Positions 13,897-29,986 of a stretch of DNA of 41,123 nt are shown piece after piece. The stretch is from Oscillospiraceae bacterium (lineage in GTDB: Bacteria; Bacillota; Clostridia; Oscillospirales; Oscillospiraceae). A model generated the notes under the pieces. That model was not told the DNA's origin, made no database searches, and saw nothing but the letters and a program-made list of their open reading frames with translations. The stretch spans positions 1 to 41,123 of the forward strand of contig WQVH01000016.1 in NCBI GenBank assembly GCA_009781695.1, in the 5' to 3' direction. Made by a program: the position numbers and the translations under genes. Positions within the stretch are counted from its first letter, which is position 1. Every line of letters starts with the position of its first letter.

Positions 13897-14201
13897 CAAT
13901 TTGCTCCGCTGAAAGACCGCACACCAATCTTTGAAAGTGCAATATACCCGCTAACTTGACAGCCGGCTCAAAACCGGTTGCCTCGCGGCACACGCAAGAT
14001 TTCGCTTAATGCTGCTCGGTTCCCCGCCTGACATGGTTCGCGAATTTACGTTGCGCGAGACCGATTCGTCATCGCTGCTTATCAAGGGCTGACAATACAT
14101 CACAAGTCCTGGGATTGGAATTCATTCCTGCTGTAGCGGGTTGCAGGTCACAGGGCACCGCTATCTCCCCAACTAGTGCGGCCTTTCGCCGGAGCAAATT
14201 G
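13897..14201 (-). ncRNA. ffs: Signal recognition particle RNA, large (Bacillus-type)
   Basis: RNA scaffold of the signal recognition particle, which with Ffh targets nascent membrane and secreted proteins. On the minus strand the ends pair (CAATTTGCTCCGGCG at the 5' end with CGGAGCAAATTG at the 3' end). The 5' half has the conserved Alu-domain stretch GGGGAGATAGCGGTGCCCTG with ACCTGCAACCCGCTACAGCAGG. The S domain shows GTCAGGCGGGGAACCGAGCAG, i.e. the GGAA tetraloop and the AGCAG internal loop bound by Ffh. At about 305 nt it is the large form with an Alu domain found in Bacillota. Position just upstream of dnaX is the conserved one. Exact ends are taken from the terminal pairing. Confidence 0.93.
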
Positions 14202-14616: not shown

Positions 14617-15579
14617 CTACCCATCTTGACCATGCACAACATGACATGCGCAATAACGCCCTTCGGACACCTGTAGAAGTTCCGGAGTGACATCTTTGCA
14701 AATGTCCTTTCGCATAAAGCATCGGCCATAAAATCTGCAACCGGGCGGTGGTGCAATCGGACTCGGTACATCGCCCTCAAGGAGAATGCGCTCCAGATCA
14801 TCGTCCACATTCGGAATGGGAATTGCGGAAAGCAGCGCCTTGGTATATGGGTGTAACGGGTCTTTAAAGATTGAAGAAAAGTCTGTCATTTCAACGATTT
14901 TGCCCAAATACATGACGGCAATATTATTGCTCACATGCTTAATGACGCTCAAATCGTGTGAAATAAACAGGTAAGTAAGCCCGAATTCCTTCTGCAAGTC
15001 CTCCATCAGGTTCAAGATTTGTGCCTGAATAGATACATCCAAAGCCGAGACCGGCTCGTCTTGCACGATGAAGGATGGATTTAGCGCCAAGGCTCGGGCG
15101 ATGCCGATTCTTTGCCGCCGTCCGCCGTCGAGCTCGTGCGGATATGTGTTTTCCAGCCGTGATGCCAAACCGACGGTTTCCATGAGTTTTTTCACCTTTT
15201 GATAACGCTCGGTCTTGCTCATGGACTTTTTGTTGATAATAAAAGGCTCGGCGATAATCTCCGACACGCTCATGCGTGGATTTAAGGATGCAAAAGGGTC
15301 TTGGAAAACGATCTGCGCATTTTCGCGAAATGCACTCATCTGCTTCTTGTTGTACTGTAGGATATCTTCTCCATTAAAAAGCACCTCGCCGCCTGAGGCT
15401 TCTAAGAGCCGCAAGACGACACGCCCGGTGGTGGATTTTCCACATCCGGACTCACCCACCAAGCCCAAGGTTTCGCCTTTGTTTATAGAAAAATTGATAT
15501 CATCAACGGCGTGGAGCAAACCTTTGGCGGTCTTAAAGTATTTTTTCAGATTCTTTACTTCCAGAAGCTTTTCAGTCAT
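14617..15579 (-). CDS. oppF: Oligopeptide/dipeptide ABC transporter ATP-binding protein (OppF/DppF type)
   Basis: One of two ATPases energising the peptide importer, 320 residues. Walker A is GESGCGKST, Q-loop VFQDPFASLNPRM, Walker B IVQDEPVSALD, with the oligopeptide C-terminal cysteine region (CRFYGRCFMRKDIC) that in this family can bind an iron-sulfur cluster. The signature reads LDGGRRQR rather than LSGGQRQR, a variant also found in clostridial OppF proteins. Open frame extends upstream to 15666, but the ATG at 15579 overlaps the oppD stop (TAATG) and has GGAGGTG in front, so it is the start. The 1-base overlap couples it to oppD. Confidence 0.95.
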   Translation of the reverse strand: MTEKLLEVKNLKKYFKTAKGLLHAVDDINFSINKGETLGLVGESGCGKSTTGRVVLRLLEASGGEVLFNGEDILQYNKKQMSAFRENAQIVFQDPFASLNPRMSVSEIIAEPFIINKKSMSKTERYQKVKKLMETVGLASRLENTYPHELDGGRRQRIGIARALALNPSFIVQDEPVSALDVSIQAQILNLMEDLQKEFGLTYLFISHDLSVIKHVSNNIAVMYLGKIVEMTDFSSIFKDPLHPYTKALLSAIPIPNVDDDLERILLEGDVPSPIAPPPGCRFYGRCFMRKDICKDVTPELLQVSEGRYCACHVVHGQDG

Positions 15580-16559
15580 TATTCCACCTCCTGCTTGCGA
15601 AACAGCACACACTTGACAAAATGATTGTTGCCGATGTCTACATTGGCCGGGACGACTTGCGCACATTCCGCTCCGGCCTGTTCACACCGAGGGTGAAATG
15701 GGCAGCCGGAAGGTAGGTTCGAAGGGTCAGGCATCAGTCCCATGATAGGCTTTAGGGTGTCATCGTCATTTTTGATGTTGGGTATGGAGCCAAACAATCC
15801 GACGGTGTAAGGATGTTTTGGATTCTTGAAAAGGTCGTATTTATCGGCAAATTCCACAATGCTGCCGGCATACATAATGGCGACTTTATCACAGATTTTA
15901 GCCACGATGCCCAGATCATGAGTGATCATGATCATTGCTGTGTTGAATTCTTTTTTTAACCCGCGCATGAGTTCCAGAACCTGAGCTTGAATCGTTACAT
16001 CCAAGGCTGTTGTTGGCTCATCAGCAATCAGCAGCTCGGGATTACAGGCCAGAGCAATGGCGATACCTACACGTTGGCGCATACCGCCGGAGAATTGGTG
16101 CGGAAACTCTTTGGAGCGCTCTGCGCCTATGCCGACTTTTTCGAGCATTTCTTCGGCTTTTTTCAGCGCCTCTTTGGCGGTGACTCGTTCATGCAGGCTG
16201 ATGACTTCGGCGATTTGTTCACCGATGGGTATGACCGGATTGAGGCTGGTCATAGGGTCTTGGAAAATCATCGATACCTTGTTGCCTCGGATCTTGCGCA
16301 TTTCTGATTCTGTTTTGGCGATGAGGTTTTCCCCATCGAGAAAAATTTTACCACCGATTATTTTGCCGGGTGGATTGGGTACAAGTCGTAAAATCCCCAG
16401 TGCTGTGGTTGTTTTTCCGGCACCGGTTTCGCCGACTAATCCCACGGTCTCACCGCGGTCAAGGCTTAGGTTCAGATCGTTTACGGCGCAAACTACACCA
16501 TCATCTGTTACGTAATGGATCGTAAGTTTTTCTATATCAAGCAGCTTTTCTTTACTCAT
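15579..16559 (-). CDS. oppD: Oligopeptide/dipeptide ABC transporter ATP-binding protein (OppD/DppD type)
   Basis: Second ATPase of the peptide importer, 326 residues. Walker A GETGAGKTT, Q-loop MIFQDPMTSLNPV, intact signature FSGGMRQRVGIAIAL, Walker B LIADEPTTALDVTIQ and the switch histidine in MITHDLGIVA are present. The C-terminal oligopeptide domain has CPFHPRCEQAGAEC, completing the four-cysteine pattern. The ATG at 16559 has AGGAGTG eight bases upstream. It lies in the tight run oppB-oppC-oppD-oppF with gaps of 15, 26 and -1 bases. Confidence 0.96.
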   Translation of the reverse strand: MSKEKLLDIEKLTIHYVTDDGVVCAVNDLNLSLDRGETVGLVGETGAGKTTTALGILRLVPNPPGKIIGGKIFLDGENLIAKTESEMRKIRGNKVSMIFQDPMTSLNPVIPIGEQIAEVISLHERVTAKEALKKAEEMLEKVGIGAERSKEFPHQFSGGMRQRVGIAIALACNPELLIADEPTTALDVTIQAQVLELMRGLKKEFNTAMIMITHDLGIVAKICDKVAIMYAGSIVEFADKYDLFKNPKHPYTVGLFGSIPNIKNDDDTLKPIMGLMPDPSNLPSGCPFHPRCEQAGAECAQVVPANVDIGNNHFVKCVLFRKQEVE

Positions 16560-16585
16560 GATTTCACTCCTGCCATAATCTAATC

Positions 16586-17509
16586 TTACTGTTTGAGGCG
16601 CGGGTCAAGCGCATCGCGCAGACCGTCGCCCAGCATATTGAGCCCAAAAACAACCAATGCAATGGCCAAGCCGGGAAACACAGTGCTGGGCCAATGGTCA
16701 CGGATGAAGCGTCTGCCTTCTGAAAGCATTGCACCCCATTCCGGAATCGGCGGCTCGATGCCTAAGCCGATGAAACTCAAAGCTGCGGCTGATAAAATGG
16801 CCAACGCCATACCCATCGTAGCGCGAACAATAATCGGAGCCATACAATTGGGTAAAATATGACGGAACATGATGCGCACGTCACCGGCCCCAATGGCTCT
16901 GGCAGCTTCAATAAACTCTTGTTCGCGCACGGATAATACCGATGAGCGCACCTGTCGTGCGAAAAATGGAACATAGCCAATACCTACGGCGATCATTACA
17001 TTGATCAGACCCGCACCTAAAGCTGCGGCAATAGATATGGCAAGCAGAATGTTGGGTATAGCGAGCAAGATATCGACAATACGCATGATGATGCTATCGG
17101 TAATTTTGCTGTAATAACCGGCTACAGTGCCCATGATTACACCGACAATCATTGAAATGCCTACCACGACAAAGCCGATTTGCAGCGATATGCGCGAACC
17201 ATGAACTACTCTGTCAAAGATATCACGGCCGAAATTATCGGTACCGAATGGATGTTCGGCACTGGGAAAGGCATTGCGATTACGCAAATCTTGGTATTCG
17301 TAAGCCGGAACTCTGCCCAAATACTCAACATAATGAGCCGGGGATATGATATCGGCAAAAATAGCTGTTAAAATCAGTGCCAATACGATAAACAAGCCCA
17401 CCATGCCGATCGGATTTTTTCTTAAGCGACGCCAGACTTCAAACCATTGGCTGCGCTTTTTTTGTGTGTTTTCTTGATTGCGGTTTTCAACCGCAGTGTT
17501 TATATTCAT
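16586..17509 (-). CDS. oppC: Oligopeptide/dipeptide ABC transporter permease (OppC/DppC type)
   Basis: Membrane permease of the peptide importer, 307 residues. A polar N-terminus (NQENTQKKRSQWFEVWRRLRKNP) precedes the first helix and the OppC_N region, with FGTDNFGRDIFDRVVHGSR typical of this subunit. Five further helices follow, with the EAA motif REQEFIEAARAIGAGDVRIMFRHILPN that docks to the ATPases, and the terminal MLGDGLRDALDPRLKQ signature. The ATG at 17509 is chosen (GAGGTGAG about 9 bases upstream); a GTG one codon earlier is also possible. Confidence 0.96.
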   Translation of the reverse strand: MNINTAVENRNQENTQKKRSQWFEVWRRLRKNPIGMVGLFIVLALILTAIFADIISPAHYVEYLGRVPAYEYQDLRNRNAFPSAEHPFGTDNFGRDIFDRVVHGSRISLQIGFVVVGISMIVGVIMGTVAGYYSKITDSIIMRIVDILLAIPNILLAISIAAALGAGLINVMIAVGIGYVPFFARQVRSSVLSVREQEFIEAARAIGAGDVRIMFRHILPNCMAPIIVRATMGMALAILSAAALSFIGLGIEPPIPEWGAMLSEGRRFIRDHWPSTVFPGLAIALVVFGLNMLGDGLRDALDPRLKQ

Positions 17510-17527
17510 CACAGTTTACTCACCTCT

Positions 17528-18454
17528 TTATTTGTATTGTGACTTGATCCGCGGATCAATATAGGCGTACAGTATATCGACTGCAAGGTTTACAAGGCTA
17601 AATGCGATAGCCAAGAACAATACGCCGCCTTGAACGACCATGAAGTCACGTGTGCGTATGGAATCGACCATGAAGCGTCCTAAGCCGGGCAGTGCGTAGA
17701 TGGTTTCGGTCAAGACTGCACCACCTAGAAGAAAACCGAAGTCAAGTCCGACAGCAGTGACCACTGGAATCAAAGCGTTGCGGAAGGCATGTTTCCATAT
17801 GATTATCGACTCTTTTTGACCTTTGGCGCGAGCGGTACGGATGTAGTCTTGGCGGATTACTTCCAACATGCTCGAACGTGTGATACGCATGACCAATGCG
17901 GCGCTGCCTGTACCCAGAGTGATAATCGGCAAAATCCAACCCAATGGATGATCCAAGCCGGAGGGTGGAAGCCATCCTAAATTAAGCGAAAAAGTAATGA
18001 TCAGCATCAGTCCCAACCAGAAATTGGGGATTGATACTGCCAATAAACCGGCAGCCGTAGCTGCACTGTCGAAGATAGAGTACTGTTTGGTGGCCGAGAT
18101 GATACCTAGCGGGACACCGATGAGCACCGAAAGAATCGTGCCGTAAAAAGCCAGTGCCAAGGTTGTTGGGAATCGATCGGAAATTTCTAGAAAAACGCTT
18201 CTGTGCGTTACGCTTGAAAGTCCCAGATCACCTTGCAGCAAATTGATCATGTAATATGCGTACTGTACCAGAAATGGCCGGTTGAGACCCATTTCTTCTC
18301 TTAACGCTTCAACCGCTTCCGGTGGTGCGGCTTCGCCTAAGGCTAAAAGTGCCGGATCGCCGGGCGTTATGTAGTTCATTGAGAAAATAATAAATGTTAC
18401 GCCAATGATAATAGGGATCATCATCAAAAGACGCTTTAATATATATTTATACAA
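17528..18454 (-). CDS. oppB: Oligopeptide/dipeptide ABC transporter permease (OppB/DppB type)
   Basis: Partner permease, 308 residues with six membrane helices. N-terminal YKYILKRLLMMIPIIIGVTFIIF, then the extracytoplasmic PGDPALLALGEAAPPEAVEALREEMGLNRP stretch found in OppB. The EAA loop (RQDYIRTARAKGQKESIIIWKHAFRNALIP) and the C-terminal DILYAYIDPRIK ending are family hallmarks. The start is a TTG at 18454 with AGGCGGTGAT just upstream; no ATG fits better. It follows oppA by 156 bases containing a hairpin. Confidence 0.95.
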   Translation of the reverse strand: MYKYILKRLLMMIPIIIGVTFIIFSMNYITPGDPALLALGEAAPPEAVEALREEMGLNRPFLVQYAYYMINLLQGDLGLSSVTHRSVFLEISDRFPTTLALAFYGTILSVLIGVPLGIISATKQYSIFDSAATAAGLLAVSIPNFWLGLMLIITFSLNLGWLPPSGLDHPLGWILPIITLGTGSAALVMRITRSSMLEVIRQDYIRTARAKGQKESIIIWKHAFRNALIPVVTAVGLDFGFLLGGAVLTETIYALPGLGRFMVDSIRTRDFMVVQGGVLFLAIAFSLVNLAVDILYAYIDPRIKSQYK

Positions 18455-18539
18455 ATAATCACCGCCTATTTTGGGTAACCGCTGATTAATTCACAAATAC
18501 TTCGGGTGGAAATTAACCATCGCTTACTTAGAAAACCCA

Positions 18540-18569
18540 ATGGCATGGGCTGGTGACAACCCATGCCAT
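18540..18569 (-). promoter_or_regulatory. Intercistronic hairpin between oppA and oppB
   Basis: Perfect 10-bp stem ATGGCATGGG / CCCATGCCAT with a 10-base loop, 41 bases past the oppA stop. On the minus strand it is followed by TGGGTTTTC, so it may be a partial terminator. That would give the binding protein more mRNA than the membrane and ATPase genes downstream. Confidence 0.6.
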
Positions 18570-18610
18570 CATGTCTACTGTATTACTATAAAACGCTTAT
18601 GACAATGGAA

Positions 18611-20212
18611 TTACTCGAAGTATACCATCCACAGGTTGATGATGCCGGTAGGCAGACCAATGAAGCCGCCGACATTATCGCGAGTAGCGTATAGTTCTGA
18701 GGCTTGCCATAGTGGAATCAGTGGCAAATCAGCCATGATCAGCTCTTGTGCCTCGCGATAAGCTTCCATGCGAACCGCATCATCAGGGCTGGTTCTGCCG
18801 ATTATAAGCAGTTCGTCAACACGTGGGTTTCGATAGAAGTTACGGTTGCCGCCTTCGCCCCAGTTGCTGCTGTGGTAAACCGGATACAGACCATAGTCCG
18901 GGTCGCCCGTAACTGTAGTCCAGCCCATGAGAGACATGCCGTGCTCGCCGGCGGCGGTCGCCGGAAGCAGTACGCCCCACTCGTAGATGTTGATTTGTGT
19001 TTCGATATTCAGTGCGCGCAGTTGCGCTTGGATCATAACAGCGGCATCAGCGCGCATGGCATTGCCTTCATTGACCCAAATGTCGGTGGAGAAGCCATCT
19101 TCGAGACCGGCTTCGGCCATCAGTTCACGTGCTCTTGCGATATTTTGTTCGATTGGCGGGAAGGTCACTGCGCCTCTGACTGTAGTGGGAAGAGGGCCTT
19201 GAGCAACTGAGCCTAAACCGGCCCAAGCCACATCAACGATCGTTGGGATGTCGATGGCATATGCAATCGCTTGACGCACTCTGATGTCATCAAAAGGCGC
19301 TCTTTGAGTGTTGAAGCCGAGCCAAGTGTTGACAGCGAAGTTTGGTATCTCATACATGATCAAATCATTATGCTCTACGATGCGCGCCACTTCAGAAGCG
19401 GCTGCGTCAATCAGGATATGCGCAGCGCCGGTTTCCAGTTCGATGGTGCGTATAGCGGCTTCCGGAACAACGCGGAAAGTGATATGCTCAATTACCGGCA
19501 AGGCGCCTTCTGCCATGCCCGGAACAACGCTGTTGAAGTCGTCGAAGCGGACAAGCTCATAGCGGTCGCCCGCTGTAAAGCTGTGGAAGCGAAATGGGCC
19601 GGTGCCGATGGGATGTTGTCCGTGTGCTTCATCGCCGATGCGCTCTACTTCTTCGCGGTTAACGATGCTTGCCGCAGAGTGTGCCAAGTGATTGAGCAGC
19701 GGAGCAAAAGGCTCTTCTGTGATGAGTTTAACTTCGTGGTCACTGAGCACGACCGCTTCGCTGATGAAGCCGGTAATTGCAGCAATGTGTGATGATTCAC
19801 CGGCACGATTGAGGCTAAATGCAACGTCGTCAGCGGTGAGGATGTTACCATTGTGGAAGCGAACACCTTCTCTTAAGGTGAATACGACGGTTTGCGCATC
19901 CAAGAATTCCCACGATGTAGCCAGACCGGGAATGATGTTGCGGTTATGATCTTGGTATACCAAGGTTTGGTAAATCAGCGCATGGGCACGAGCTGAGGGT
20001 ACATCGTTTGTTAAAGATGGGTCAAAGCTGTTGGGCATCATAGGCTGAACAACAATCAGATGGGCATCATCATTAGCTGTACCTGCATCGGTGCCGCCAT
20101 CAGTTGTGCCGCTTGCCGGGGGTGTAACGTCCTGGTCATTTCCGCAGCCTGTAAACAAAAACATTGAGCCTAAGACAGCTGCGACCAGTAATACTACTAC
20201 TACTTTTTTCAT
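18611..20212 (-). CDS. oppA: Oligopeptide/dipeptide-binding lipoprotein (SBP_bac_5 family)
   Basis: Extracytoplasmic substrate-binding protein of the peptide importer, 533 residues. A lipoprotein signal peptide ends in the lipobox LFTGC with Cys23, followed by a Thr/Gly/Asp-rich tether. Family-5 solute-binding features include PNSFDPSLTNDVPSARAHALIYQTL, TVVFTLREGVRFHNGNILTADDVAFSL, PIGTGPFRF, FNTQRAPFDDIRVRQAIAYAID and a C-terminal PLIPLWQ block. SD GGAGGAA precedes the ATG. First gene of the minus-strand opp operon. Members bind peptides, nickel complexes or sugars; peptide is the default reading because both ATPases are of OppD/OppF type. Confidence 0.93.
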   Translation of the reverse strand: MKKVVVVLLVAAVLGSMFLFTGCGNDQDVTPPASGTTDGGTDAGTANDDAHLIVVQPMMPNSFDPSLTNDVPSARAHALIYQTLVYQDHNRNIIPGLATSWEFLDAQTVVFTLREGVRFHNGNILTADDVAFSLNRAGESSHIAAITGFISEAVVLSDHEVKLITEEPFAPLLNHLAHSAASIVNREEVERIGDEAHGQHPIGTGPFRFHSFTAGDRYELVRFDDFNSVVPGMAEGALPVIEHITFRVVPEAAIRTIELETGAAHILIDAAASEVARIVEHNDLIMYEIPNFAVNTWLGFNTQRAPFDDIRVRQAIAYAIDIPTIVDVAWAGLGSVAQGPLPTTVRGAVTFPPIEQNIARARELMAEAGLEDGFSTDIWVNEGNAMRADAAVMIQAQLRALNIETQINIYEWGVLLPATAAGEHGMSLMGWTTVTGDPDYGLYPVYHSSNWGEGGNRNFYRNPRVDELLIIGRTSPDDAVRMEAYREAQELIMADLPLIPLWQASELYATRDNVGGFIGLPTGIINLWMVYFE

Positions 20213-21045: not shown

Positions 21046-21074
21046 TTGACAAAAATAACTAATTAACATATTTT
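21046..21074 (+). promoter_or_regulatory. Promoter of the CUT2 importer / glycyl-radical cluster
   Basis: Consensus TTGACA (21046-21051), 17-base spacer, TATTTT (21069-21074); a TATAAT follows at 21076-21081 but lacks a matching -35. The region 20897-21120 is strikingly AT-rich, which favours UP-element or curvature effects. GTAAATGTTG occurs twice (about 20952 and 21092), and GTTTAT-G-ATAAAC (about 21106-21118) is a small palindrome in the leader. No regulator gene is adjacent. Confidence 0.6.
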
Positions 21075-21176
21075 GTATAATGGTTTTTAAGTAAATGTTG
21101 ATAATGTTTATGATAAACTTATCTAAATCTCATCAGTTTTAGTAGGCGTAGCTCAAAAGAAAGCGAGGAATGATAT

Positions 21177-22667
21177 ATGGGGCAATTTTTAGAATTTAGA
21201 AACATAAGTAAATCTTTCCCCGGCGTTAAGGCACTCGATGATGTTAGCTTTAGGGCTGAAAGCGGCAGAATATTGGCATTACTTGGAGAAAATGGGGCAG
21301 GTAAGAGTACGCTGCTTAAAATCATGAGCGGTGACTATATACCGGATGAGGGTTCGGTTGTCCTCAATGACGAGGTCATGAATTTTGTGTCGCCTCATGA
21401 TGCCATAGTAAAGGGCATCAGCGTGATCTATCAAGAGCGTCAGCTGATGATGGCTCTGAGTGTTATGGAAAATGTCTTTGCAGGCGATCTGCCAAACCAC
21501 AATGGCGTTGTTGACAAAGCAAAACTCAAGGCAGAAACCAAGGCGCTCATTGATAAGTTCGGCCTTGCCATACAGCCTGAAACTCCGGTAATGCTTCTTC
21601 CTGTTGCACATCAACAGATGGTTGAAATCATGAAGGCATACAGACGCAACTCTAAGGTCATTGCCTTTGACGAACCGACAGCGCCCCTTACAGATACAGA
21701 AATTACAGTTTTATTCGATTTGATCAGACAGCTCAAAGAGGATGGCAAAATAGTAATTTACGTTTCACACAGAATGAAAGAGATCTATGACATTACAGAT
21801 GATGTTATTGTGCTAAAGGATGGTAAATTCGTCTCCAACATGGTCACACAAGACACTGTTGAGGGCGATTTAATTAAAGCGATGGTTGGCCGCGACATCG
21901 GCGATACCTATGCAAATCTCGATCGAAATGACACATATGGCGATGTTGTTCTTGAAGTTAAAAATCTGACAACAAACGCAATCAGTGATGTCAGCTTCAC
22001 TTTAAGACAGGGTGAAGTGTTGGGTTTTGCGGGGCTTGTTGGCTCAGGTCGAACTGAAGTTGCCAGAGCAATATTCGGAGCGGATCCAATCATCTCAGGT
22101 GCGTTGAAGTTTGAAGGTGAGGACTTTTTACCGAAGACACCAAAGGATGCAATAGATAAGGGTATTGCCTTGTGTCCGGAGGATAGAAAAGAGCAAGGGC
22201 TTGTGTTGCACAGATCAATTGAGGACAATGTGTGTATGCCGGTTCTTGATAAGCTGGCTAAGTTCTTTTTCCTCAATGTTAAAAAGTGTCACAAACTGAC
22301 TGTCGATGCGATCAAGAAGTACGATATCAAAACGCCCACTGTAGACAAGATGGTTGTTGAACTCTCAGGTGGTAATCAGCAAAAGGTTATTCTGGGACGC
22401 TGGACATCGGAGGCGTTTAACTCGAAATTAATTATCCTCGATGAGCCAACAAAGGGCATTGATGTTAAGACCAAAGCTGAGATTTACCAGATGGTTTGCG
22501 ATTTTGCAAAACAAGGAATGGCAGTCATATTTATTTCCTCAGAGCTGACAGAGGTAATCAATGTTGCAGATTCAATAGCTGTTATGAATAATGGCCGTAT
22601 CGCAGGGGTTGTTGATAGAAAAGATGCTACTGAAGAAAGCGTTCTTGCATTAGCAATGCTGCATTAA
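21177..22667 (+). CDS. CUT2-type sugar ABC transporter ATP-binding protein (RbsA/MglA-like)
   Basis: Tandem ATPase of a carbohydrate-uptake-2 importer, 496 residues with two nucleotide-binding domains. Domain 1 has Walker A GENGAGKST and Walker B VIAFDEPTAPLTD, with the usual CUT2 replacement of its signature (LPVAHQQMVEIMKA). Domain 2 has the usual degenerate Walker A (GLVGSGRTEVARAIFG), an intact signature LSGGNQQKVILGRW and Walker B LIILDEPTKGID. CPEDRKEQGL is a family hallmark. SD GAGGAATG precedes the ATG. First gene of the cluster; the two permeases and binding protein follow. The family transports ribose, galactose, xylose, autoinducer-2 and related compounds; which one cannot be told. 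Confidence 0.95.
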   Translation: MGQFLEFRNISKSFPGVKALDDVSFRAESGRILALLGENGAGKSTLLKIMSGDYIPDEGSVVLNDEVMNFVSPHDAIVKGISVIYQERQLMMALSVMENVFAGDLPNHNGVVDKAKLKAETKALIDKFGLAIQPETPVMLLPVAHQQMVEIMKAYRRNSKVIAFDEPTAPLTDTEITVLFDLIRQLKEDGKIVIYVSHRMKEIYDITDDVIVLKDGKFVSNMVTQDTVEGDLIKAMVGRDIGDTYANLDRNDTYGDVVLEVKNLTTNAISDVSFTLRQGEVLGFAGLVGSGRTEVARAIFGADPIISGALKFEGEDFLPKTPKDAIDKGIALCPEDRKEQGLVLHRSIEDNVCMPVLDKLAKFFFLNVKKCHKLTVDAIKKYDIKTPTVDKMVVELSGGNQQKVILGRWTSEAFNSKLIILDEPTKGIDVKTKAEIYQMVCDFAKQGMAVIFISSELTEVINVADSIAVMNNGRIAGVVDRKDATEESVLALAMLH

Positions 22668-22689
22668 ACGAAAAGGAGATCATAAACAT

Positions 22690-23745
22690 ATGGGAAAAGT
22701 ATCCGGTAATTTAACCGCTTCTTCAACCAATAATTACGCAAAGGTTCATCCCCTAAAAAGAGCAATGCGTACCAAAGCGTTTCCGCTGCTTGTTCTTTTT
22801 GCCCTCATGGTAATCTTTTTCTCTATTTTTCCGCAAATCCATGTAGGTCCTCATGCTATTTTTCTGAGAGCGAGAACATTTTGGCGCATATTAGAAGCGC
22901 TATCTGTAACCGGTCTGCTGACAATAGGTGCGGGTATGCTGATCGTATCCGGTGGGATTGATCTTTCAAACGGATCGGTGGGATCACTGGCAGGTGTTAT
23001 TCTTGCAACCGGTGTTTCAGCCAATGGCTGGCCTTGGTGGGTAGCAGTAATCGTAGCAGTGTTGGCAAGCGGTATTGTAGGTTTTTTAAATGCCGTAATT
23101 ATTAACGAACTAAAGCTTCCGGCATTTGTCGTTACGCTGGCGATGGCGGCCGCCATACCTGCGGTCAGTCTCTTTATGAGCCGAAATGAAATCGGCACAT
23201 TTATGGGTCAGATTAATTTTAGAAATTCAACTTTAGAAGCAATTGGCAGACATAGAATCGGTGAAGCAAACACTGCGGCTCTTGTGGTACTGGCTCTGTT
23301 TGTAATCTATGGGGTTATTCTTGCAAGAACAAAGTTTGGGCGAACGCTGTATCTGATGGGCGGCAACCGCGCCGCAGCTCGTCTTGTAGGTATTAACGAG
23401 AAAAGAATCTCATATTTTCTATACATCAACTGTGCGGTTCTTGCCGGACTTGCAGGATTGCTCAACGCCACACGCGTGGGTCTTGCAGGTGCACAGGTTC
23501 TTGTAGGTGAGCAGTTTACCGGAATCACGGCGGCCATCCTTGGTGGTATTTCCTTCGGCGGTGGTTCAGGCGGTCTCGGTGGTGCGTTTATGGGAATTGT
23601 TGTGATCAGAACATTTGCACAAGGAACGGCTATTTCAGGGGCATCTCCCTACCTTACAGCGCCGGCAAGTGGTGCGCTGCTCCTGCTTGCCCTTGCTTTT
23701 GACTACTTCAACACTTCGAGAACCAATAAACGATTGACTGTTTAG
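22690..23745 (+). CDS. CUT2-type sugar ABC transporter permease 1 (RbsC-like)
   Basis: 351-residue permease with 8-10 hydrophobic segments, BPD_transp_2 family. Characteristic blocks are LTIGAGMLIVSGGIDLSNGSVGSLAG, LKLPAFVVTLAMAA, and TKFGRTLYLMGGNRAAARLVGI, the cytosolic coupling region. GGISFGGGSGGLGGAFMGIVVIRTFAQG follows, a glycine-rich run found in CUT2 permeases. SD AAAAGGAGAT precedes the ATG, 22 bases after the ATPase gene. It likely forms a heterodimer with the following permease, as two related but clearly different permeases are encoded. Confidence 0.94.
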   Translation: MGKVSGNLTASSTNNYAKVHPLKRAMRTKAFPLLVLFALMVIFFSIFPQIHVGPHAIFLRARTFWRILEALSVTGLLTIGAGMLIVSGGIDLSNGSVGSLAGVILATGVSANGWPWWVAVIVAVLASGIVGFLNAVIINELKLPAFVVTLAMAAAIPAVSLFMSRNEIGTFMGQINFRNSTLEAIGRHRIGEANTAALVVLALFVIYGVILARTKFGRTLYLMGGNRAAARLVGINEKRISYFLYINCAVLAGLAGLLNATRVGLAGAQVLVGEQFTGITAAILGGISFGGGSGGLGGAFMGIVVIRTFAQGTAISGASPYLTAPASGALLLLALAFDYFNTSRTNKRLTV

Positions 23746-23789
23746 TAAATCGCATCTACTCAATCACGTATTATGAAAGGAAAGAAAAT

Positions 23790-24824
23790 ATGAACGTGTC
23801 TCGCTCCAGAATGTTTTTGCGTTCCAAGGTCTTCCAGTTGCTGGTGCTCAGTGCCATTGTGTTCGCAATTACTACATTAATATCTCCGGGTTGGGTTAAC
23901 CCGCACAATATCCGCAGACTCATGGATAACATGGTGATCACAGGCATCTTTCTGACTGCCGTAGCGCCCCTGCTCATGAGTGGTGTGATCGACTTTTCGG
24001 GTTCTTCAATGGCGGTACTTTCTCAAGTGATTTTTGTCATGCTTTTCGAAGCGACAGGTCTTCCTTGGGGGTTGGTTGCGCTCATTGCGATAATCTGTGG
24101 AGGAGTTATCGGGCTGATCAATGCATTTTTTGTAGTAAAACTCAATCTTATGGCGTTTATCGTAACCATGGCCATGGCGACAGTATTGGCGGGTATTGCG
24201 TCATGGCTGACCAGAAATGTGATTACTCCGCTCAATGCCACATCCTTTACAGATCTGAGTACAATATGGGTTTTTGATATCATTCCGGTTTTCTTCATAT
24301 TCTTTGCGATTCTGATCATCATATATAGCTGGATTCTCATGAAAACAACCTTTGGCAGAAGTGTGATCATGTGCGGCGGTAACCAAACTGCTGCCCGCCT
24401 TGCAGGGCTTAATCCAAAAAGAATCAGAACCATATTATTTATAAATAGTGGTATGATCGCCTCGATTGCCGGTATACTCCATTCTGCGCAGACGCGTAGT
24501 GCCAATGCATCGGGTGGTCTCGGTATGAATATGCCGCATATGACTGCGTTCATCGCATCTATCCTCGGCGGCGTATCCTTCTTTGGTGGTTCGGGAGCAC
24601 TTGCGGGCGCATTTATGGGCGTTGTGCTCATTGAGCTGCTCGCATACGCACTGCTTGTTATGGGACTCCCGGCAGCGGTGACAGGTCTGCTAAACGGTAT
24701 ATTGCTCCTTGTGGCAATGACAATCGATCAAGTGGCCATGAGTATGAGAATGAAAAAGCTTGGTCTGAAAAGTCATGGAAGCGGCGGTGGCGGAGCGGTT
24801 ATGCCCGGCACCGCAAAAACATAA
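23790..24824 (+). CDS. CUT2-type sugar ABC transporter permease 2 (RbsC-like)
   Basis: 344-residue BPD_transp_2 permease with the same pattern as the upstream one: FLTAVAPLLMSGVIDFSGSSMAVLSQ, LNLMAFIVTMAMATVLAGIAS, TTFGRSVIMCGGNQTAARLAGLNPKRI and ILGGVSFFGGSGALAGAFMGVVLIELLAY. The tail ends in a short glycine run (GSGGGGAVMPGTAKT). SD GAAAGGAAAG precedes the ATG. A perfect 14-bp hairpin begins 13 bases after its stop, separating it from the binding-protein gene. Confidence 0.94.
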   Translation: MNVSRSRMFLRSKVFQLLVLSAIVFAITTLISPGWVNPHNIRRLMDNMVITGIFLTAVAPLLMSGVIDFSGSSMAVLSQVIFVMLFEATGLPWGLVALIAIICGGVIGLINAFFVVKLNLMAFIVTMAMATVLAGIASWLTRNVITPLNATSFTDLSTIWVFDIIPVFFIFFAILIIIYSWILMKTTFGRSVIMCGGNQTAARLAGLNPKRIRTILFINSGMIASIAGILHSAQTRSANASGGLGMNMPHMTAFIASILGGVSFFGGSGALAGAFMGVVLIELLAYALLVMGLPAAVTGLLNGILLLVAMTIDQVAMSMRMKKLGLKSHGSGGGGAVMPGTAKT

Positions 24825-24837
24825 TTCATCGGCAATG

Positions 24838-24869
24838 CGCTTATATCTGTTACTGAACAGATATAAGCG
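24838..24869 (+). promoter_or_regulatory. Perfect 14-bp stem-loop before the binding-protein gene
   Basis: CGCTTATATCTGTT (24838-24851), loop ACTG, AACAGATATAAGCG (24856-24869). No T-run follows immediately, so it is not a classical terminator. It lies between permease 2 and the SBP ribosome binding site (TAGGAGG, 24887-24893) and would protect or separate the downstream mRNA segment. A comparable hairpin stands on the other side of the gene at 26390-26423. Confidence 0.75.
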
Positions 24870-24899
24870 GTGTCAAATAAGATTTTTAGGAGGCTTAAA

Positions 24900-26360
24900 A
24901 TGAAAAAAGGTATTGCAATTGTTCTTGTTCTTTGTATGTGCGTAGCTCTTGTGGCTGCATGCAGCAACGGCGACTCTACCCCAGCAACCGACGGCAACGG
25001 AGCTCAAGGTTCCGGGGGGGGGGCTTCGGTAGATAGTCCGGGTCCTGAAAGACTTGGTTTCTGGGATCGTAACTACGACTACACACAACATCCGCGATTT
25101 AGATTTGTATACATGGTAAGCGGACCGGGCCCTCTGTTTGATACATGGGATACGGAATTTGCCATGTGGGCAGAGCGTCTCAACATGGACTACCATGGCT
25201 TGTGGGCACCTGCAGACGGCAGTAATGAAGAGTTTCTCATCCAGCTTGAGACTTTCATCGACATGGGCATGGATGGCATTATCTTTGATGCTGATGACCA
25301 AATCGTGTGGCGTGTTGTAGAAATTTTAGAACAACATAACATACCTTGGATGGGCGGTATGGCTCAATCACGTGATCTTGCACACCCCTATTCAGTTGAC
25401 GGACAACATGTACCGGGCAGATTGCTTGGATCATCAGTCGGCTTTAACAATACTGCTGTTGGTCGCGAAATGGCTAATGCTATGATTGACTGGACACTTG
25501 AAAATCGTCCAAACATTCCGATTGAAAGAGTCGGATTTATCGCTTATGATTTTACACTTGCTCCGCAGTTACACGAGCGTGCACTTGGCGCTGAGCAAAT
25601 ATGGGCTGAAAGATTCCCTCAATTCGGCAGCTTCCATGCGAGTATCGCAATTAATCCGGACAACTTCTTCCTCCTTGACGCAGCCGCCGGTGATTTCGGT
25701 CAGGAAACAGCCATCGACCTGCTCACCATCTTCCTTTCAAACCCGCCTCCTGAGGCTCGCGACATTGATTTTTGGATGATTCAAGCGCTGATTTCGGATC
25801 AGGCTATGGGCGCACAAATTGCTCTTGAAAACCTAGGTATGGTTGATGATGCAATCATCACATCCTTCGGTGGTATTGATGTTGTTGCGAACATGTGGGA
25901 GCAAGGTCTTGATACCGCATGGAGAGTGCATCTTGATGCGCCTCCTGCGATCTTTGTTGAGACTGTGATTAACACATTCTGGGCTTTCGTAGCCGGACTT
26001 GCAACGCATGACACAATCCATCCTGAATGGAGAGTTGTTTGGGATAAGGGCGACACTTTTGAACTTACAAATGAAATAGACCCTGATCTGGGCGTACCGA
26101 GAATCGCAACAAATCCTGACGGAAGTGCGGTGATACTTGCAGAACGAAATTTCTCATCAATGGCGCTTCCTCTGATCCATGTGAATCAGGATAATTTCAG
26201 AGAAATCCTTGCATGGGGGGATCTATATCAATTCGGGCCTGATGCAACTGATGAAGAGCGTCGTTGGCCGCAATTCCCGATGGTTTATGACATTGATTTA
26301 GTTGATATGAATATCGCACCGTGGTTTGTTCAAACGCAATGGCCTCGTGACTGGCCATAA
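24900..26360 (+). CDS. Sugar-type ABC transporter substrate-binding lipoprotein, oversized and Trp-rich
   Basis: Extracytoplasmic receptor for the CUT2 importer, 486 residues from the ATG at 24900, seven bases after TAGGAGG. The lipobox LVAAC (Cys21) makes it a lipoprotein. A Ser/Thr/Gly/Asp tether follows, containing three glycines encoded within a G10 run (25014-25023). The mature part resembles periplasmic-binding-protein type 1 folds (Peripla_BP_4-like): FVYMVSGPGPLFDTWDTEF, LETFIDMGMDGIIFDADDQ, IPWMGGMAQ and a late IITSFGGIDVVANMWEQG. It is about 150 residues longer than RbsB-type proteins, mainly in the C-terminal third, and has 19 tryptophans, ending in PWFVQTQWPRDWP. The ligand is unknown; aromatic-lined binding of a glycoside or bulky compound is conceivable. 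Confidence 0.88.
   Translation: MKKGIAIVLVLCMCVALVAACSNGDSTPATDGNGAQGSGGGASVDSPGPERLGFWDRNYDYTQHPRFRFVYMVSGPGPLFDTWDTEFAMWAERLNMDYHGLWAPADGSNEEFLIQLETFIDMGMDGIIFDADDQIVWRVVEILEQHNIPWMGGMAQSRDLAHPYSVDGQHVPGRLLGSSVGFNNTAVGREMANAMIDWTLENRPNIPIERVGFIAYDFTLAPQLHERALGAEQIWAERFPQFGSFHASIAINPDNFFLLDAAAGDFGQETAIDLLTIFLSNPPPEARDIDFWMIQALISDQAMGAQIALENLGMVDDAIITSFGGIDVVANMWEQGLDTAWRVHLDAPPAIFVETVINTFWAFVAGLATHDTIHPEWRVVWDKGDTFELTNEIDPDLGVPRIATNPDGSAVILAERNFSSMALPLIHVNQDNFREILAWGDLYQFGPDATDEERRWPQFPMVYDIDLVDMNIAPWFVQTQWPRDWP
25014..25023 (+). repeat. G10 homopolymer inside the binding-protein gene
   Basis: Ten consecutive G in the linker codons 39-42, just after the lipoprotein anchor. A change of one base would shift the frame and abolish the mature protein. 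The present length keeps the frame open. Confidence 0.95.
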
Positions 26361-26389
26361 ACCTTAACAAATCATCTGCTATACTGGCC

Positions 26390-26423
26390 GGGGTGTATCA
26401 AAATGTAAGTTTTGATACACCCC
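26390..26423 (+). promoter_or_regulatory. Perfect 14-bp stem-loop after the binding-protein gene
   Basis: GGGGTGTATCAAAA (26390-26403), loop TGTAAG, TTTTGATACACCCC (26410-26423), in the 100-base gap before the activase gene. It is followed by CATTAAGC with no T-run, so read-through to activase and radical enzyme is plausible. It would stabilise the 3' end of the upstream message. Confidence 0.75.
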
Positions 26424-26460
26424 CATTAAGCAAAGTAATCAAACAAGGCAGGTTAATTTC

Positions 26461-27420
26461 ATGGATTACCAAAATGTCCCCGGAAGAGTGTTCGATTTAC
26501 AAGGCTACAGTGTCCATGATGGGCCGGGCATACGCACCACAGTGTATCTCAAAGGCTGTCCGCTTCGCTGCGTCTGGTGTCACAGCCCCGAATCCCTAAA
26601 GTATTCTATCGAACTGGTTTATCTGCCTATTAAATGCATCGGAGTGAAGCTCTGTGAAAGTGCCTGCATTAAATCTTGCCCTCAGGGTGCAATTTCAGAA
26701 GGTGTGGCTGAGGAGGCTATGGATAAATCAGGTATGATATGCAAAGCAGTAGTTGACCGAAGTCAGTGTACAGGCTGTCTTGCTTGTACAAGCGCCTGTA
26801 TCACAAAAGCACTGAGCCCGGCAGCGTGGGATACTGATGTGGATGAGATTTGTGCAAGGCTCTTAAAGGATCGTCCATTTTTTAAAAGAGGCGGCGGTGT
26901 TTCGATTTGCGGCGGCGAAGCGCTCGCTCAATTTGATTTTACATATAATCTGGCTAAACGCTTACATGAGTGCGCAATACATGTTTGCCTTGACACAACA
27001 GGTTATACTAATTTAGAAAATATTAAAGCAATTGCACCTTTTATTAATTTATATTTATATGACTTAAAGCATATGAACCCGGAGATGCACAAGCGTCTCA
27101 CAGGTGTTTCAAATGAAAAAATATTGGAAAATGCCCGATACCTCGCTAAAAACGGCGGAAAGTTTTACATCCGCATCCCCATCATACCCGGACTGACTGA
27201 CGACGAGGACAACCTGAGCAAAACCGCAGAGTTCTGCAAGGAGCTGGGCAATGCAGTGGAACTCGTGCAGCTACTGCCCTTTCATGAGGTGGGGAAAGTG
27301 AAATATGAACGTATTGGATTGGAATATCAGTTGTCTTCCATATCCCCGCCTGATGACGACTTTATGAATAAAACATTAGCGTTGTTTAAAAGCTATGGAC
27401 TTCATGTTCAGCTCAACTAG
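26461..27420 (+). CDS. Glycyl-radical enzyme activating enzyme (radical SAM, two-cluster type)
   Basis: Radical SAM protein, 319 residues, that cleaves S-adenosylmethionine and abstracts hydrogen from the glycine of its partner enzyme. The radical SAM motif CxxxCxxC is C33-C37-C40 (KGCPLRCVWCHSPE), preceded by SVHDGPGIRTTVYLKGC, the activase hallmark. An inserted ferredoxin-like domain (about 59-120) has two cysteine groups, CESACIKSCPQGA and CTGCLACTSACITKAL, as in activases of eliminase-type radical enzymes but not of PFL itself. SICGGEALAQ is the SAM-binding GGE motif. The stop codon TAG lies inside a 70-bp MITE fragment (27417-27486). Its target is almost certainly the radical enzyme 85 bases downstream. 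Confidence 0.95.
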   Translation: MDYQNVPGRVFDLQGYSVHDGPGIRTTVYLKGCPLRCVWCHSPESLKYSIELVYLPIKCIGVKLCESACIKSCPQGAISEGVAEEAMDKSGMICKAVVDRSQCTGCLACTSACITKALSPAAWDTDVDEICARLLKDRPFFKRGGGVSICGGEALAQFDFTYNLAKRLHECAIHVCLDTTGYTNLENIKAIAPFINLYLYDLKHMNPEMHKRLTGVSNEKILENARYLAKNGGKFYIRIPIIPGLTDDEDNLSKTAEFCKELGNAVELVQLLPFHEVGKVKYERIGLEYQLSSISPPDDDFMNKTLALFKSYGLHVQLN

Positions 27421-27486
27421 GACGATAACAAAAATAAGTGCCGAAAGGCAGGGGGCAGAGGCGTGTTCAAGATTGCGCCATTACCC
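27417..27486. mobile_element. Truncated MITE end, 70/70 identical to the 8.9-kb element
   Basis: The exact reverse complement of 8872-8941, including the 25-bp terminal inverted repeat (27462-27486) followed by TA (27487-27488). The other 201 bases of the element are absent. It fills nearly the whole space between activase and radical enzyme. It provides the activase TAG and ends 7 bases before the SD of the next gene. Confidence 0.9.
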
Positions 27487-27505
27487 TAAAGAAACGGAGG
27501 AAATT

Positions 27506-29986
27506 ATGACTTTATCAGAAAAAAGGTTTGACCTACCTATATCAGCGCGCATAAAAGATCTGAAAGCAAAGCGGGAACGCATCAACAAGGATATGAGGCT
27601 TAATTTTGAGCGTAACCGCATCATCACCGAATACTATCGCAACAATGAAAATGAATATCCCGTATTAAAACGCGGCGGATTTCTTCACGCATGGTGCACA
27701 TCACGTGAGATCAATATTGACGATGATGACATTTTTGTGGGCGATGCGGGTCCTCGCACGCGCAGTGTACACTTTGACATAGAGGTCACGCCCCACAGTT
27801 GGTTTAAAGCATGCTTCGGTGACACTGATGAGCGGTTTCGCGCCGCTTGGCAAGTGCCCGGCTCTGTCTGGGTTACGGATGAAGAGCGCGCCTTTATCCT
27901 TGATGCTGCCGACTGGTGGGTTGGCAATGACATTGCCTCCACAGGACGAGGCCTGATGCCTCCGGATTGGTTTGAGCAATTTCCGGAAGGTATGGATTTT
28001 TCTATGTTTTCCGGAAGCTATCCCGGTCACTTCTGCCCCAACTACGAAAGAGCTGTTACAGTCGGTTTTGGCACAGTAAGAAAAACAGCACTTGAAAAGA
28101 TTGACGCAATCAAAGCGGATACGACATACGGCGATGTACGAAGCGAACTGTTTTACCGTGGCATTGTCAGAGTTTGTGACGGTATGATTGCGATGAGTAA
28201 GCGTTATGCGCAAGGTTGCCGTGATAAGGCAGCATCTGCAAGCTCGGAACGCCGTGCAGAACTTTTGAAGATGGCTGATGCTCTGGATTGGATTATTGAA
28301 AATCCTGCCAGAAATCTCTGGGAAGGCCTCCAAGTAATACTCTTCTACCAGAACCTGCTCACAGCCGACGGTACACATTGGGCGGATTCACCGGGACTTA
28401 TCGACAGTTACTTAGGCCCTCTTGCTGAAAACGATATTAAGACAGGGGCGCTGACTCAAGAAGGTGTACAGGAACTGTTCGATGCATTTCTCATTCAAAT
28501 GGGCAACCAGATCATTATGTTCCCTAAGCCCACAAATGATACCCTAATCGAAGCGCACAACAATAACAGGACATTCTTCGATCTTCAAGGTGGTATGCAA
28601 AACCTTGCGGCAGGTATGCAAATTACTGTAGGCGGCATGACAGCTGACGGTACGTCCGGCGTTTATAATATCGCAACTGAGGCGATGCTGCTTTCCTATT
28701 ACCGTCTTCGTGTTGCTGAGCCAAGTATCGCACTGAGAATTAATCAGTACACCCCTGACCATATCTGGGCGCTTGGCGTTGCATGCAGCAAGCGACTGGG
28801 AGGTATGCCGCAATTTAATAATGACGATGTCATCATACCTGCCATGCACAACAGAGGGATTCCTATAGAAGACGCAAGACAATACGGTGTGTTTGGATGT
28901 GTAGAACCTGCGATTTCCGGTAAGGAATGGTCACTGCCTGCAAACTGCGGCATATTTGGTGGCGGATTCAGTATGACCGGGCTGCTCAATTTTGTCATTC
29001 ATGGCAATATCGATCCACTGACTCAAGCTCAAGGCACGCGTCCTTGCAAGAAGCTGTATGAATATGAATCTTTTGATGAAATTAAAGAGGAATTCGAGGG
29101 TCAAATCAAAAATGCTGTGAATAGAATGGTCAGATTCAACCAATATGCAGCATTTATTTTCGATACGGCATGGCCAATCCTTTCAGCCTCTGTAATGACG
29201 GAGGGTTGTGTAGAATCAGGCAAAGACGTAACATGGGGCGGCGCAAAGTACAATGGTCATGGATTCTTTATCAACGCAATCGGTACAGTCGCCGACTCAT
29301 TGAGCGTCATCAAGAAGCTCTGCTTTGATGAGCAGAAAATCACGACACGAGAGCTATACGATGCACTTGCAAATAACTGGGAAGGTGCCGAAATGCTGCG
29401 TCAGAAGATCCTTAATGAAGGCGAGTTCTACGGTAACGACTTGGATACGCCCGATCAAATTGTGGAGTGGTTTACAAACTACTATGCGGATTACTATATG
29501 TCAAAAGAAGGCCCCTACGGCGGCACACTCAATCCCGGATCACTTGATCTTTTCTGGGTAGCTGCAGGCAAGCGTGTGTGGGCGACACCTGACGGACGCC
29601 GTGCTAAAGAGCCGCTTTCACACTCCAGTGATCCTACGCAAAGCGCTGTTAAAAATGGACCGCTGGCATATGTTAAGAGTGTTGCGAAAATGCCGTGGTA
29701 TAAAATGAGATTTGGCGGAGCGATCAATCTGAGACTGGATGCAAACTCTGTTAACTCCGACGATGCCGAAGCAAAAATGCGTGAACTGATTGAAACCTAT
29801 TTTGATCTAGGCGGTATTCAGTTCCACTTTACCGTAGCGGACACATCTGTGATGAGAGCTGCTCAAAAGTCGCCGAAGGATTATCAAGACCTCGTCGTAC
29901 GTATCGCAGGCTTCTCGGCATACTTTACGCACCTGCCAAGGGATGTTCAAGATAATTACATCGAAAGATATGAAATGGGCGTTTAA
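27506..29986 (+). CDS. Glycyl radical enzyme, Cys-x-Glu (eliminase/dehydratase) type, substrate unknown
   Basis: Oxygen-sensitive radical enzyme of the PFL-like superfamily, 826 residues, with a ten-stranded barrel fold by family. The thiyl-radical cysteine is C465 in FGCVEPAISG, with the general-base glutamate E467 two residues on. That GCVEP arrangement is seen in glycerol/diol dehydratases, choline TMA-lyase and isethionate lyase, but not in PFL. The glycyl radical loop is VRIAGFSAYFTHL with G802, 25 residues from the C-terminus; the usual tyrosine after glycine is Phe. The ATG at 27506 has ACGGAGG in front; frame extension upstream to 27395 only reads through the MITE fragment. No microcompartment or aldehyde dehydrogenase gene is adjacent. 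Together with the CUT2 importer this suggests a sugar- or polyol-derived substrate (inference). Confidence 0.93.
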   Translation: MTLSEKRFDLPISARIKDLKAKRERINKDMRLNFERNRIITEYYRNNENEYPVLKRGGFLHAWCTSREINIDDDDIFVGDAGPRTRSVHFDIEVTPHSWFKACFGDTDERFRAAWQVPGSVWVTDEERAFILDAADWWVGNDIASTGRGLMPPDWFEQFPEGMDFSMFSGSYPGHFCPNYERAVTVGFGTVRKTALEKIDAIKADTTYGDVRSELFYRGIVRVCDGMIAMSKRYAQGCRDKAASASSERRAELLKMADALDWIIENPARNLWEGLQVILFYQNLLTADGTHWADSPGLIDSYLGPLAENDIKTGALTQEGVQELFDAFLIQMGNQIIMFPKPTNDTLIEAHNNNRTFFDLQGGMQNLAAGMQITVGGMTADGTSGVYNIATEAMLLSYYRLRVAEPSIALRINQYTPDHIWALGVACSKRLGGMPQFNNDDVIIPAMHNRGIPIEDARQYGVFGCVEPAISGKEWSLPANCGIFGGGFSMTGLLNFVIHGNIDPLTQAQGTRPCKKLYEYESFDEIKEEFEGQIKNAVNRMVRFNQYAAFIFDTAWPILSASVMTEGCVESGKDVTWGGAKYNGHGFFINAIGTVADSLSVIKKLCFDEQKITTRELYDALANNWEGAEMLRQKILNEGEFYGNDLDTPDQIVEWFTNYYADYYMSKEGPYGGTLNPGSLDLFWVAAGKRVWATPDGRRAKEPLSHSSDPTQSAVKNGPLAYVKSVAKMPWYKMRFGGAINLRLDANSVNSDDAEAKMRELIETYFDLGGIQFHFTVADTSVMRAAQKSPKDYQDLVVRIAGFSAYFTHLPRDVQDNYIERYEMGV

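Follow-up and report, generated by a model that had tools for sequence, protein, structure and literature searches.

The stretch of DNA analyzed here (the window) is the whole of contig C16, WQVH01000016.1 (41,123 nucleotides), of a 2.2 Mb, 106-contig assembly of an Oscillospiraceae bacterium. Six genes, all located on its plus strand at 21177-29986, encode an ATPase, two permeases, a binding lipoprotein, an activase and a glycyl radical enzyme (GRE) in this order, with intergenic gaps of 22, 44, 75, 100 and 85 bp. The next gene, which encodes a ribosomal protein S15 domain, is located 235 bp downstream of the GRE gene. The ATPase gene (21177-22667) encodes a CUT2-type protein of 496 residues with two nucleotide-binding stretches, which is matched twice by Pfam ABC_tran. 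The products of the genes for CUT2-type permease A (22690-23745, 351 residues) and permease B (23790-24824, 344 residues) both match BPD_transp_2 and are 35% identical to each other. The binding-protein gene (24900-26360) starts with the ATG codon at 24900, which is preceded by an AGGAGG ribosome site, and encodes a large lipoprotein of 486 residues with the lipobox VAAC and a divergent Peripla_BP_4 domain (39.7 bits as compared to the Pfam cut-off of 35.1). The double ATPase, the BPD_transp_2 permeases and the Peripla_BP_4 binding protein identify these four gene products as a CUT2 ATP-binding cassette (ABC) importer. Among the matches listed, neither the ATPase nor the permeases reach a sugar-specific NCBIfam cut-off. 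The nearest model of the ATPase is AraG (588.4 bits as compared to a cut-off of 689, among 25 of 188 matches listed), and the permeases score at most 137 bits, permease A being below all 10 NCBIfam cut-offs among the matches listed. The binding protein gives no NCBIfam match at E 0.001. A profile of 14 binding-protein sequences (the window and 13 others) has no PDB match at E 1e-8 and only weak ones at 0.1 (best, 7.7e-4).

The activase gene (26461-27420) encodes a protein of 319 residues with a radical S-adenosylmethionine domain and ferredoxin-type cysteines (Pfam Radical_SAM and Fer4). It passes the cut-off of TIGR02494 (301.2 bits as compared to 174.35) and scores below the substrate-specific NCBIfam cut-offs among the matches listed. 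Its cysteine motifs are CxxxCxxC at 33-40 (CPLRCVWC) and CxxCxxCxxxC at 103-113, between which four more cysteines are located (59, 65, 69 and 73). The GRE gene (27506-29986) encodes a protein with a PFL-like domain (6.5e-126) and a Gly_radical domain (1.8e-20), both above the Pfam cut-offs, in which the GCVEP motif is located at 464-468 and the glycyl loop RIAGF at 799-803. A longer GRE frame of 863 residues crosses a 78-bp repeat at the activase/GRE junction (27411-27488), the first 10 bases of which overlap the end of the activase gene. The 5' extension of this frame is unlikely to be protein, because the repeat has copies elsewhere in the genome (C16:8870-8947 on the minus strand, 97%; C10:6154-6228, 91%; and shorter pieces). 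The ATG codon at 27506 is accompanied by a GGAGG ribosome site, and the longest frames of 65 GREs from the loci that were retrieved have a median of 825 residues. The predicted length of 826 residues is thus the correct one, as judged from the repeat, the ribosome site and this median. The order and common strand of the six genes (from the open reading frames (ORFs) and Pfam), the two different permeases, the two-cluster activase, the GCVEP motif and the 826-residue enzyme had all been described in an initial annotation made from the sequence alone, and are confirmed. Its statement that dehydrogenase and microcompartment partners are lacking also holds: a Pfam scan of 28 window ORFs detects no gene for an aldehyde/alcohol dehydrogenase or a microcompartment.

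The activase-GRE pair was read in 32 loci of the tight clade to which the window GRE belongs. Three of these loci were taken from a peptide-pattern search and could duplicate a genome, and three of the 33 tight-clade genomes (G330, G297 and G304, with partial genes) lie outside the 32 loci. The activase gene is located upstream of the GRE gene on the same strand in 31 of the 32 loci, and the remaining locus begins inside the GRE gene. The spacing between the two genes is 112 bp or less in 26 of the 31 loci. The activase and the GRE are a conserved two-gene unit. The importer is not part of this unit: no importer gene scores above 100 bits in any of the 32 loci, including those of the same-genus genomes G390 and G111, in which 7 to 8 kb are available upstream, and the importer is absent in all of the 22 loci in which 2 kb or more of sequence precede the activase gene. 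Therefore, the tight-clade enzymes usually work without a linked importer. In G364, the sequence stops 376 bp upstream of the activase gene. G364 and G390 encode an ATPase and a binding protein that are 78-79% and 45-47% identical to those of the window, respectively, on contigs other than that of the pair, with other genes between them (2.2 and 3.4 kb apart). The recurrence of the six-gene order in other genomes, which had been proposed as a check, is not observed (0 of 22 relatives and none of the 32 loci). The importer and the enzyme of this clade are found side by side in this genome only and do not constitute a conserved system; their link looks lineage-specific.

No third gene was seen to recur beside the pair, and its neighbours, considered as clues to the substrate, vary from locus to locus. 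FMN-oxidoreductase (PF00724) genes are located near the pair in several loci and are more frequent in genomes that encode it (2-21 matches in 12 genomes with a tight-clade GRE, as compared to 0-5 in 12 genomes that give no match at 1e-150); they are not taken as evidence, because their baseline is high. The PF00724 and URO-D genes had raised the idea of an aromatic or lignin-ether substrate, which was dropped as too weak.

Binding-protein homologues (E 1e-30 or better) are encoded in 33 of 400 family genomes. When at most two GRE places and three binding-protein places are scored per genome, a GRE-family gene is located within 2.1 kb of a binding-protein gene in 8 of the 52 loci read, the window included. 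The seven further loci belong to four other genera, and two of the eight neighbours (L188 and L193) are partial GRE frames at contig ends. In G093 and in two G215 loci, a GRE gene of the 38% group is located directly downstream of the binding-protein gene on the same strand; genes for the ATPase and both permeases precede the binding-protein gene in G093, and a permease gene precedes it in G215:C223. In G330, G129, G190 and G283, the GRE gene is located on the strand opposite to the binding-protein gene. The G330 enzyme belongs to the C7-type group, the G129 and G283 matches are partial, and the G190 enzyme is not a tree row. Similar importer-GRE couplings thus occur elsewhere in the wider clade. 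At the genome level, the binding protein is present in 14 of the 33 genomes with a tight-clade GRE (that of the window included) and in 19 of the 367 others, kinship being uncorrected. The link between the binding protein and the GREs is suggestive. The locus in G330:C297 (L153, 10914-18414) contains a GRE gene amid a URO-D-type gene and two genes for FAD_binding_2 proteins, in divergent orientation to a CUT2 importer.

The six genes had been proposed to be read from one promoter. A promoter-like site (TTGACA-17-TATTTT) is located at 21046-21074, about 100 bp before the ATPase start, and its 10/12 match to the consensus is real. However, the region contains 18 such matches as compared to 20.6 in shuffles (sd 4.8), which is no enrichment, and hairpins interrupt the gene run. 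In 17 of 25 relatives, among them the same-genus genomes G364, G111 and G390, the 150 bp before the activase start contain a sigma-70-like site of at least 10/12. In contrast, the best site before the activase gene of the window is 8/12, no better than in shuffles. The simplest account is that the pair is read from the promoter of the importer in this lineage, for which the promoter evidence alone would be insufficient. Perfect 14-bp hairpins are located 5' of the binding-protein gene (24838-24869, z -4.37) and at the importer/activase boundary (26390-26423, z -4.85), and both are more stable than any of 200 shuffles. The boundary hairpin is unlike an intrinsic terminator, because no T-tract follows it and its T residues lie on the loop side. 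Partial termination or processing at this site is possible. No such hairpin was found in L156 and L157, in which a GRE gene follows directly on the binding-protein gene, and none of 12 other binding-protein loci has a hairpin 5' of this gene. The two hairpins that bracket the binding-protein gene of the window may perhaps set its mRNA level.

The best surviving alternative is that the importer and the activase-GRE pair are independent modules juxtaposed by rearrangement, such that the enzyme acts on an internal metabolite and the importer serves for general sugar uptake. This alternative is quite possible, with a probability clearly below even. The 22 importer-less relatives, the separate contigs on which G364 and G390 encode the pair and the two importer proteins, the scattering of the latter, the lack of a recurrent third neighbour and the hairpin between the modules in the window all favour it. 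Several further observations weigh, as these do, against a coupling of the enzyme to import. The activase-GRE spacing increases to 1,446 bp in G111 and 534 bp in G390, both of the same genus. Eight of the 25 relatives have a site below 10/12 before the activase gene (six at 8 or less) and none of these has an adjoining importer, so that the weak site of the window is not peculiar to it. A strong hairpin is located 3' of the gene in 6 of 12 other binding-protein loci, suggesting that importer operons often end there. The excess of GRE neighbours is modest without the window: 7 of 53, as compared to 2.5 expected from the GRE density (P ~0.01, kinship uncorrected), a density that mixes PF02901 counts with first-look counts and includes guessed counts for G081, G083, G260 and G299. 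On the other side, the promoter-like site before the activase gene in most relatives and its absence in the window, the related binding-protein genes that adjoin GRE genes in four other genera, and the genome-level co-occurrence argue against independence. The initial annotation had stated that its proposal would fail if importer and enzyme never co-occurred. For adjacency in the tight clade this is nearly the case, but the co-occurrence at the genome level and the GRE neighbours outside the tight clade argue against discarding the proposal altogether.

The GRE was compared with known families by profile, by pairwise score and by a tree. The general NCBIfam PFL2-3 model gives 373 bits (cut-off, 678). 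Among the matches listed, the equivalog models, which include a PflD-type model and have cut-offs of 1000 to 1150, give at most 369 bits: 369.3 bits for HypD (cut-off, 1100), 320.2 bits for choline trimethylamine-lyase TIGR04394 (1050), 342.3 and 305.6 bits for (2S)-3-sulfopropanediol dehydratase NF048009 and NF048011 (1000 for both), and 268.2 and 190.3 bits for the indoleacetate and hydroxyphenylacetate decarboxylases NF033718 and NF033715 (1100 and 1150, respectively). As positive controls, the C1 GRE of the same genome is a clear HypD (1414.7 bits over 1100) and a plasmid protein is a clear HpfG (1643.8 bits over 1000); the C8 enzyme of the same genome is HpfG-like, slightly below the cut-off (981.3 bits as compared to 1000). 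The best solved matches in pairwise comparison with the PDB are CutC (316.4 bits) and glycerol dehydratase (296.1 bits). Isethionate lyase, benzylsuccinate synthase, hydroxyproline C-N lyase and other solved GREs score at most 316.4 bits in this comparison and are absent as tree rows.

The tree of 73 rows was built by a quick method with SH-aLRT support only and PflD as the chosen root. It contains nine reference rows of six groups (two of HypD, two of YbiW, two of HpfG, CutC, PflD and a microcompartment diol-dehydratase-like enzyme), two of which are the HypD and the HpfG-like enzyme of the same genome, and the diol-dehydratase-like row is named solely by its microcompartment neighbours. Glycerol dehydratase, IslA, HpsG, benzylsuccinate synthase and the decarboxylases were compared by profile or pairwise score instead. 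The tool warned of long branches among the reference rows. The window GRE is located in a 61-row clade with a support of 100, which contains none of the nine reference rows; the YbiW rows belong to a different clade, and PflD lies outside. Two more GREs of the same genome (contigs C22 and C7) are located inside the 61-row clade. A search of genome contigs with exact peptide patterns, which may miss some relatives, detects the enzyme in at least 17 loci, titled Oscillospiraceae, Clostridiales, Clostridia or Bacillota. A known family is disfavoured for the window enzyme by the curated cut-offs, which the HypD and HpfG controls pass, and by the tree placement; as judged from its sequence, the enzyme fits no characterised family that could be tested. 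The best reading is that it represents a new subfamily of eliminase-class GREs paired with a conserved activase. No account of this GRE or of a CUT2-GRE operon was found among the matches listed in the literature, which was mainly the freely readable one. The candidate undescribed catabolic system of the initial annotation is partly supported, in that the enzyme fits no characterised family testable and has the catalytic residues of GRE eliminases; the six genes are not supported as a conserved system.

The residues expected at the active site are strictly kept. In the residue table, which contains 26 tight-clade rows and in which L084 and L098 of the 61-row clade are placed in no group, Cys465, Val466-Glu467 (C-x-E) and His175 are present in all 26 tight-clade rows, and Gly802 is present in all 25 rows that reach this position. 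In contrast, the surroundings are changed. Position 292 is Trp in 25 of the 26 tight-clade rows, as compared to His in all 27 rows of the three nearest groups (51%, 43% and 38%). The two C22-type rows and the reference rows of YbiW, HpfG and the diol-dehydratase-like enzyme also have His there, the four C7-type rows have Pro or Ala, PflD has Ser, HypD has Asp and CutC has Thr. His291 and Asp294 occur in each of the 26 tight-clade rows and, within the table, are confined to them. According to PMC8473560, the C-x-E motif is a feature of the GRE eliminase class, the catalytic Asp278 of HypD is located on strand beta-2, and the beta-2 residues of CutC and IslA, both Thr, make no contact with the substrate. 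Position 292 fits the beta-2 site, because the aligned residues Asp (HypD) and Thr (CutC) match this account. Conservation of Cys465, Glu467, His175 and Gly802 makes a 1,2-elimination likely, and the changed surroundings suggest elimination on a different substrate. The presence of Trp292 in place of His likewise suggests a different substrate. Two points weaken this interpretation. Trp292 may lack contact with the substrate, as does the beta-2 residue in IslA and CutC. In addition, the mean pLDDT of the GRE model is 65.6, and residues 451-486 and 736-826 are below 50. No pocket was read from the model, because it is poor around the active site; its nearest folds in Foldseek, at this low confidence, are glycerol and propanediol dehydratases. 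Elimination chemistry is nevertheless quite probable for the window GRE. A polyol or sugar-like substrate is only tentatively proposed.

The C-x-E loop by itself would also be compatible with a decarboxylase or another carbon-carbon bond enzyme, since the decarboxylases of the GRE superfamily, including hydroxyphenylacetate decarboxylase, also carry it, and the Pfam and NCBIfam matches span the superfamily. The assignment of GCVEP enzymes to elimination or dehydration is in this sense reasonable rather than strict. However, the two decarboxylase models give lower scores than those of HypD, CutC and the sulfopropanediol dehydratases (305.6 to 369.3 bits), and no small-subunit gene is located between the GRE and S15 genes, although some GRE decarboxylases have no small subunit. 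A decarboxylase or other carbon-carbon bond enzyme is improbable. It is very improbable that the GRE is a divergent copy of a known family (glycerol or propanediol dehydratase, HypD, CutC, HpsG/HpfG, YbiW/PflD, HPAD or IAD): CutC and glycerol dehydratase are its best solved matches and the dehydratases its nearest folds, but all equivalog scores are far below the cut-offs that the HypD of the same genome passes, the 61-row clade excludes all reference rows, and position 292 is unlike that of every reference row.

An unassigned eliminase-class GRE that forms a unit with its activase and is coupled here to CUT2-type import has a probability just short of even. In the proposed mechanism, the activase would place the radical on Gly802, from which it would pass to Cys465. 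The thiyl radical of Cys465 would take hydrogen from a hydroxyl-bearing carbon of the substrate, Glu467 would deprotonate this hydroxyl group, and the neighbouring leaving group, most likely water, would depart with the help of His175. The carbonyl product would be handled by enzymes encoded elsewhere. The pair lacks a good promoter match of its own in this lineage and follows the genes of a CUT2-type importer. This importer would most likely supply the enzyme with its substrate or with a precursor of it, in the form of a small and polar solute that is probably polyhydroxylated. That the importer carries the very substrate of this enzyme is rather less than an even prospect. The absence of a prior kinase step, which the initial annotation had proposed, is an argument from absence only, because kinases can act in trans.

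The reactions of GREs are demanding ones that take place under anaerobic conditions. The window GRE, an oxygen-sensitive enzyme, credibly points to a catabolic reaction that would be new. Its partner gene is conserved, residues close to its active site set it apart, and an importer adjoins it in one lineage. The binding protein of this importer can be screened for ligands and would thereby give experimental access to the substrate, for which the stand-alone pairs of other genomes provide no such opening. Beyond the window GRE, the radical chemistry of the wider clade is a larger field still to be explored, in a family in which a small genome can encode up to 29 GRE genes. According to PMC11574389, many abundant GREs of human gut microbes have unknown functions. 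A broader interpretation, which is unlikely as a whole, is that the enzyme belongs to a large and undescribed radiation of GRE eliminases in Oscillospiraceae and their kin (61 of the 73 tree rows in one clade devoid of reference rows), that these eliminases act on various polyhydroxylated compounds from plants or hosts and became linked repeatedly to importers of one CUT2-type family, and that the coupling in the window is complete, such that an unphosphorylated solute is imported and directly dehydrated. If true, this would represent an entry step of sugar catabolism without a kinase, via a radical enzyme with a remodelled pocket.

PFL-like matches number 29 in G199, 24 in G060, 23 in G228, 20 in G063 and 18 in G245 (genomes of 2.0-2.8 Mb), 6 in the genome of the window and 0 in G003. 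Three tandem GRE genes of different tree groups are located in G162:C123 (L096, 5780-13336), following genes for proteins that have phosphotransacetylase, acetate-kinase and MFS_2 domains, and two tandem GRE genes of different tree groups are located in G093:C89 (L160, 6116-11108). Putative molybdenum hydroxylase subunit genes, identified by eye, are located directly before GREs of two groups (L101, 5975-14819, on contig C22 of the same genome; L074, 136-2502). In the window, genes for an oligopeptide-type ABC importer are located at 14617-20212 on the minus strand, divergent from the CUT2 genes. Similar genes are located near two other GREs of the same genome (L101 and L110) and after the GRE in L156 and L157. 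At Rfam gathering scores, the window contains only a large bacterial signal recognition particle RNA (13917-14181, minus strand, 182.6 bits), and nothing is detected in eight relative loci.

The known systems closest to the one in the window share parts of it. Glycerol and propanediol dehydratases (1R8W, 5I2G and 9RCO) have the fold and the CxE loop in common with the window GRE. They are the best Foldseek matches of its model, yet the identity is 24%. The beta-1 His is present in the glycerol dehydratase alignment and in the diol-dehydratase-like row, as in the window GRE. The glycerol-binding residues His281 and Ser282 of glycerol dehydratase align, by eye, with Trp292 and Ala293 in the HMMER alignment. 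No Asp of the window GRE aligns, by eye, with Asp447 of the glycerol/propanediol dehydratases, and an alignment gap adjoins this place. The dehydrogenase and microcompartment genes of the glycerol/propanediol dehydratase pathway have no counterpart among the 28 window ORFs scanned. HypD is an eliminase with the same beta-1 His (in both rows) and is among the nearest enzymes by profile, but it has Asp in both rows at the position of Trp292, and the genome encodes a separate true HypD. CutC differs in having Asp at the beta-1 site in place of His175. The 1,5-anhydroglucitol-6-phosphate dehydratases YbiW and PflD (ligands according to PDB titles) are GRE dehydratases of sugar derivatives, but their substrate is phosphorylated, and the residue that aligns with Trp292 of the window GRE is His in YbiW and Ser in PflD. 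Finally, the importer has the double ATPase and the BPD_transp_2 permeases in common with the CUT2 importers of the AraFGH, RbsABC and MglABC type, and differs from them in having two permease genes and a binding protein of 486 residues with a long C-terminal part past the Peripla_BP_4 match.

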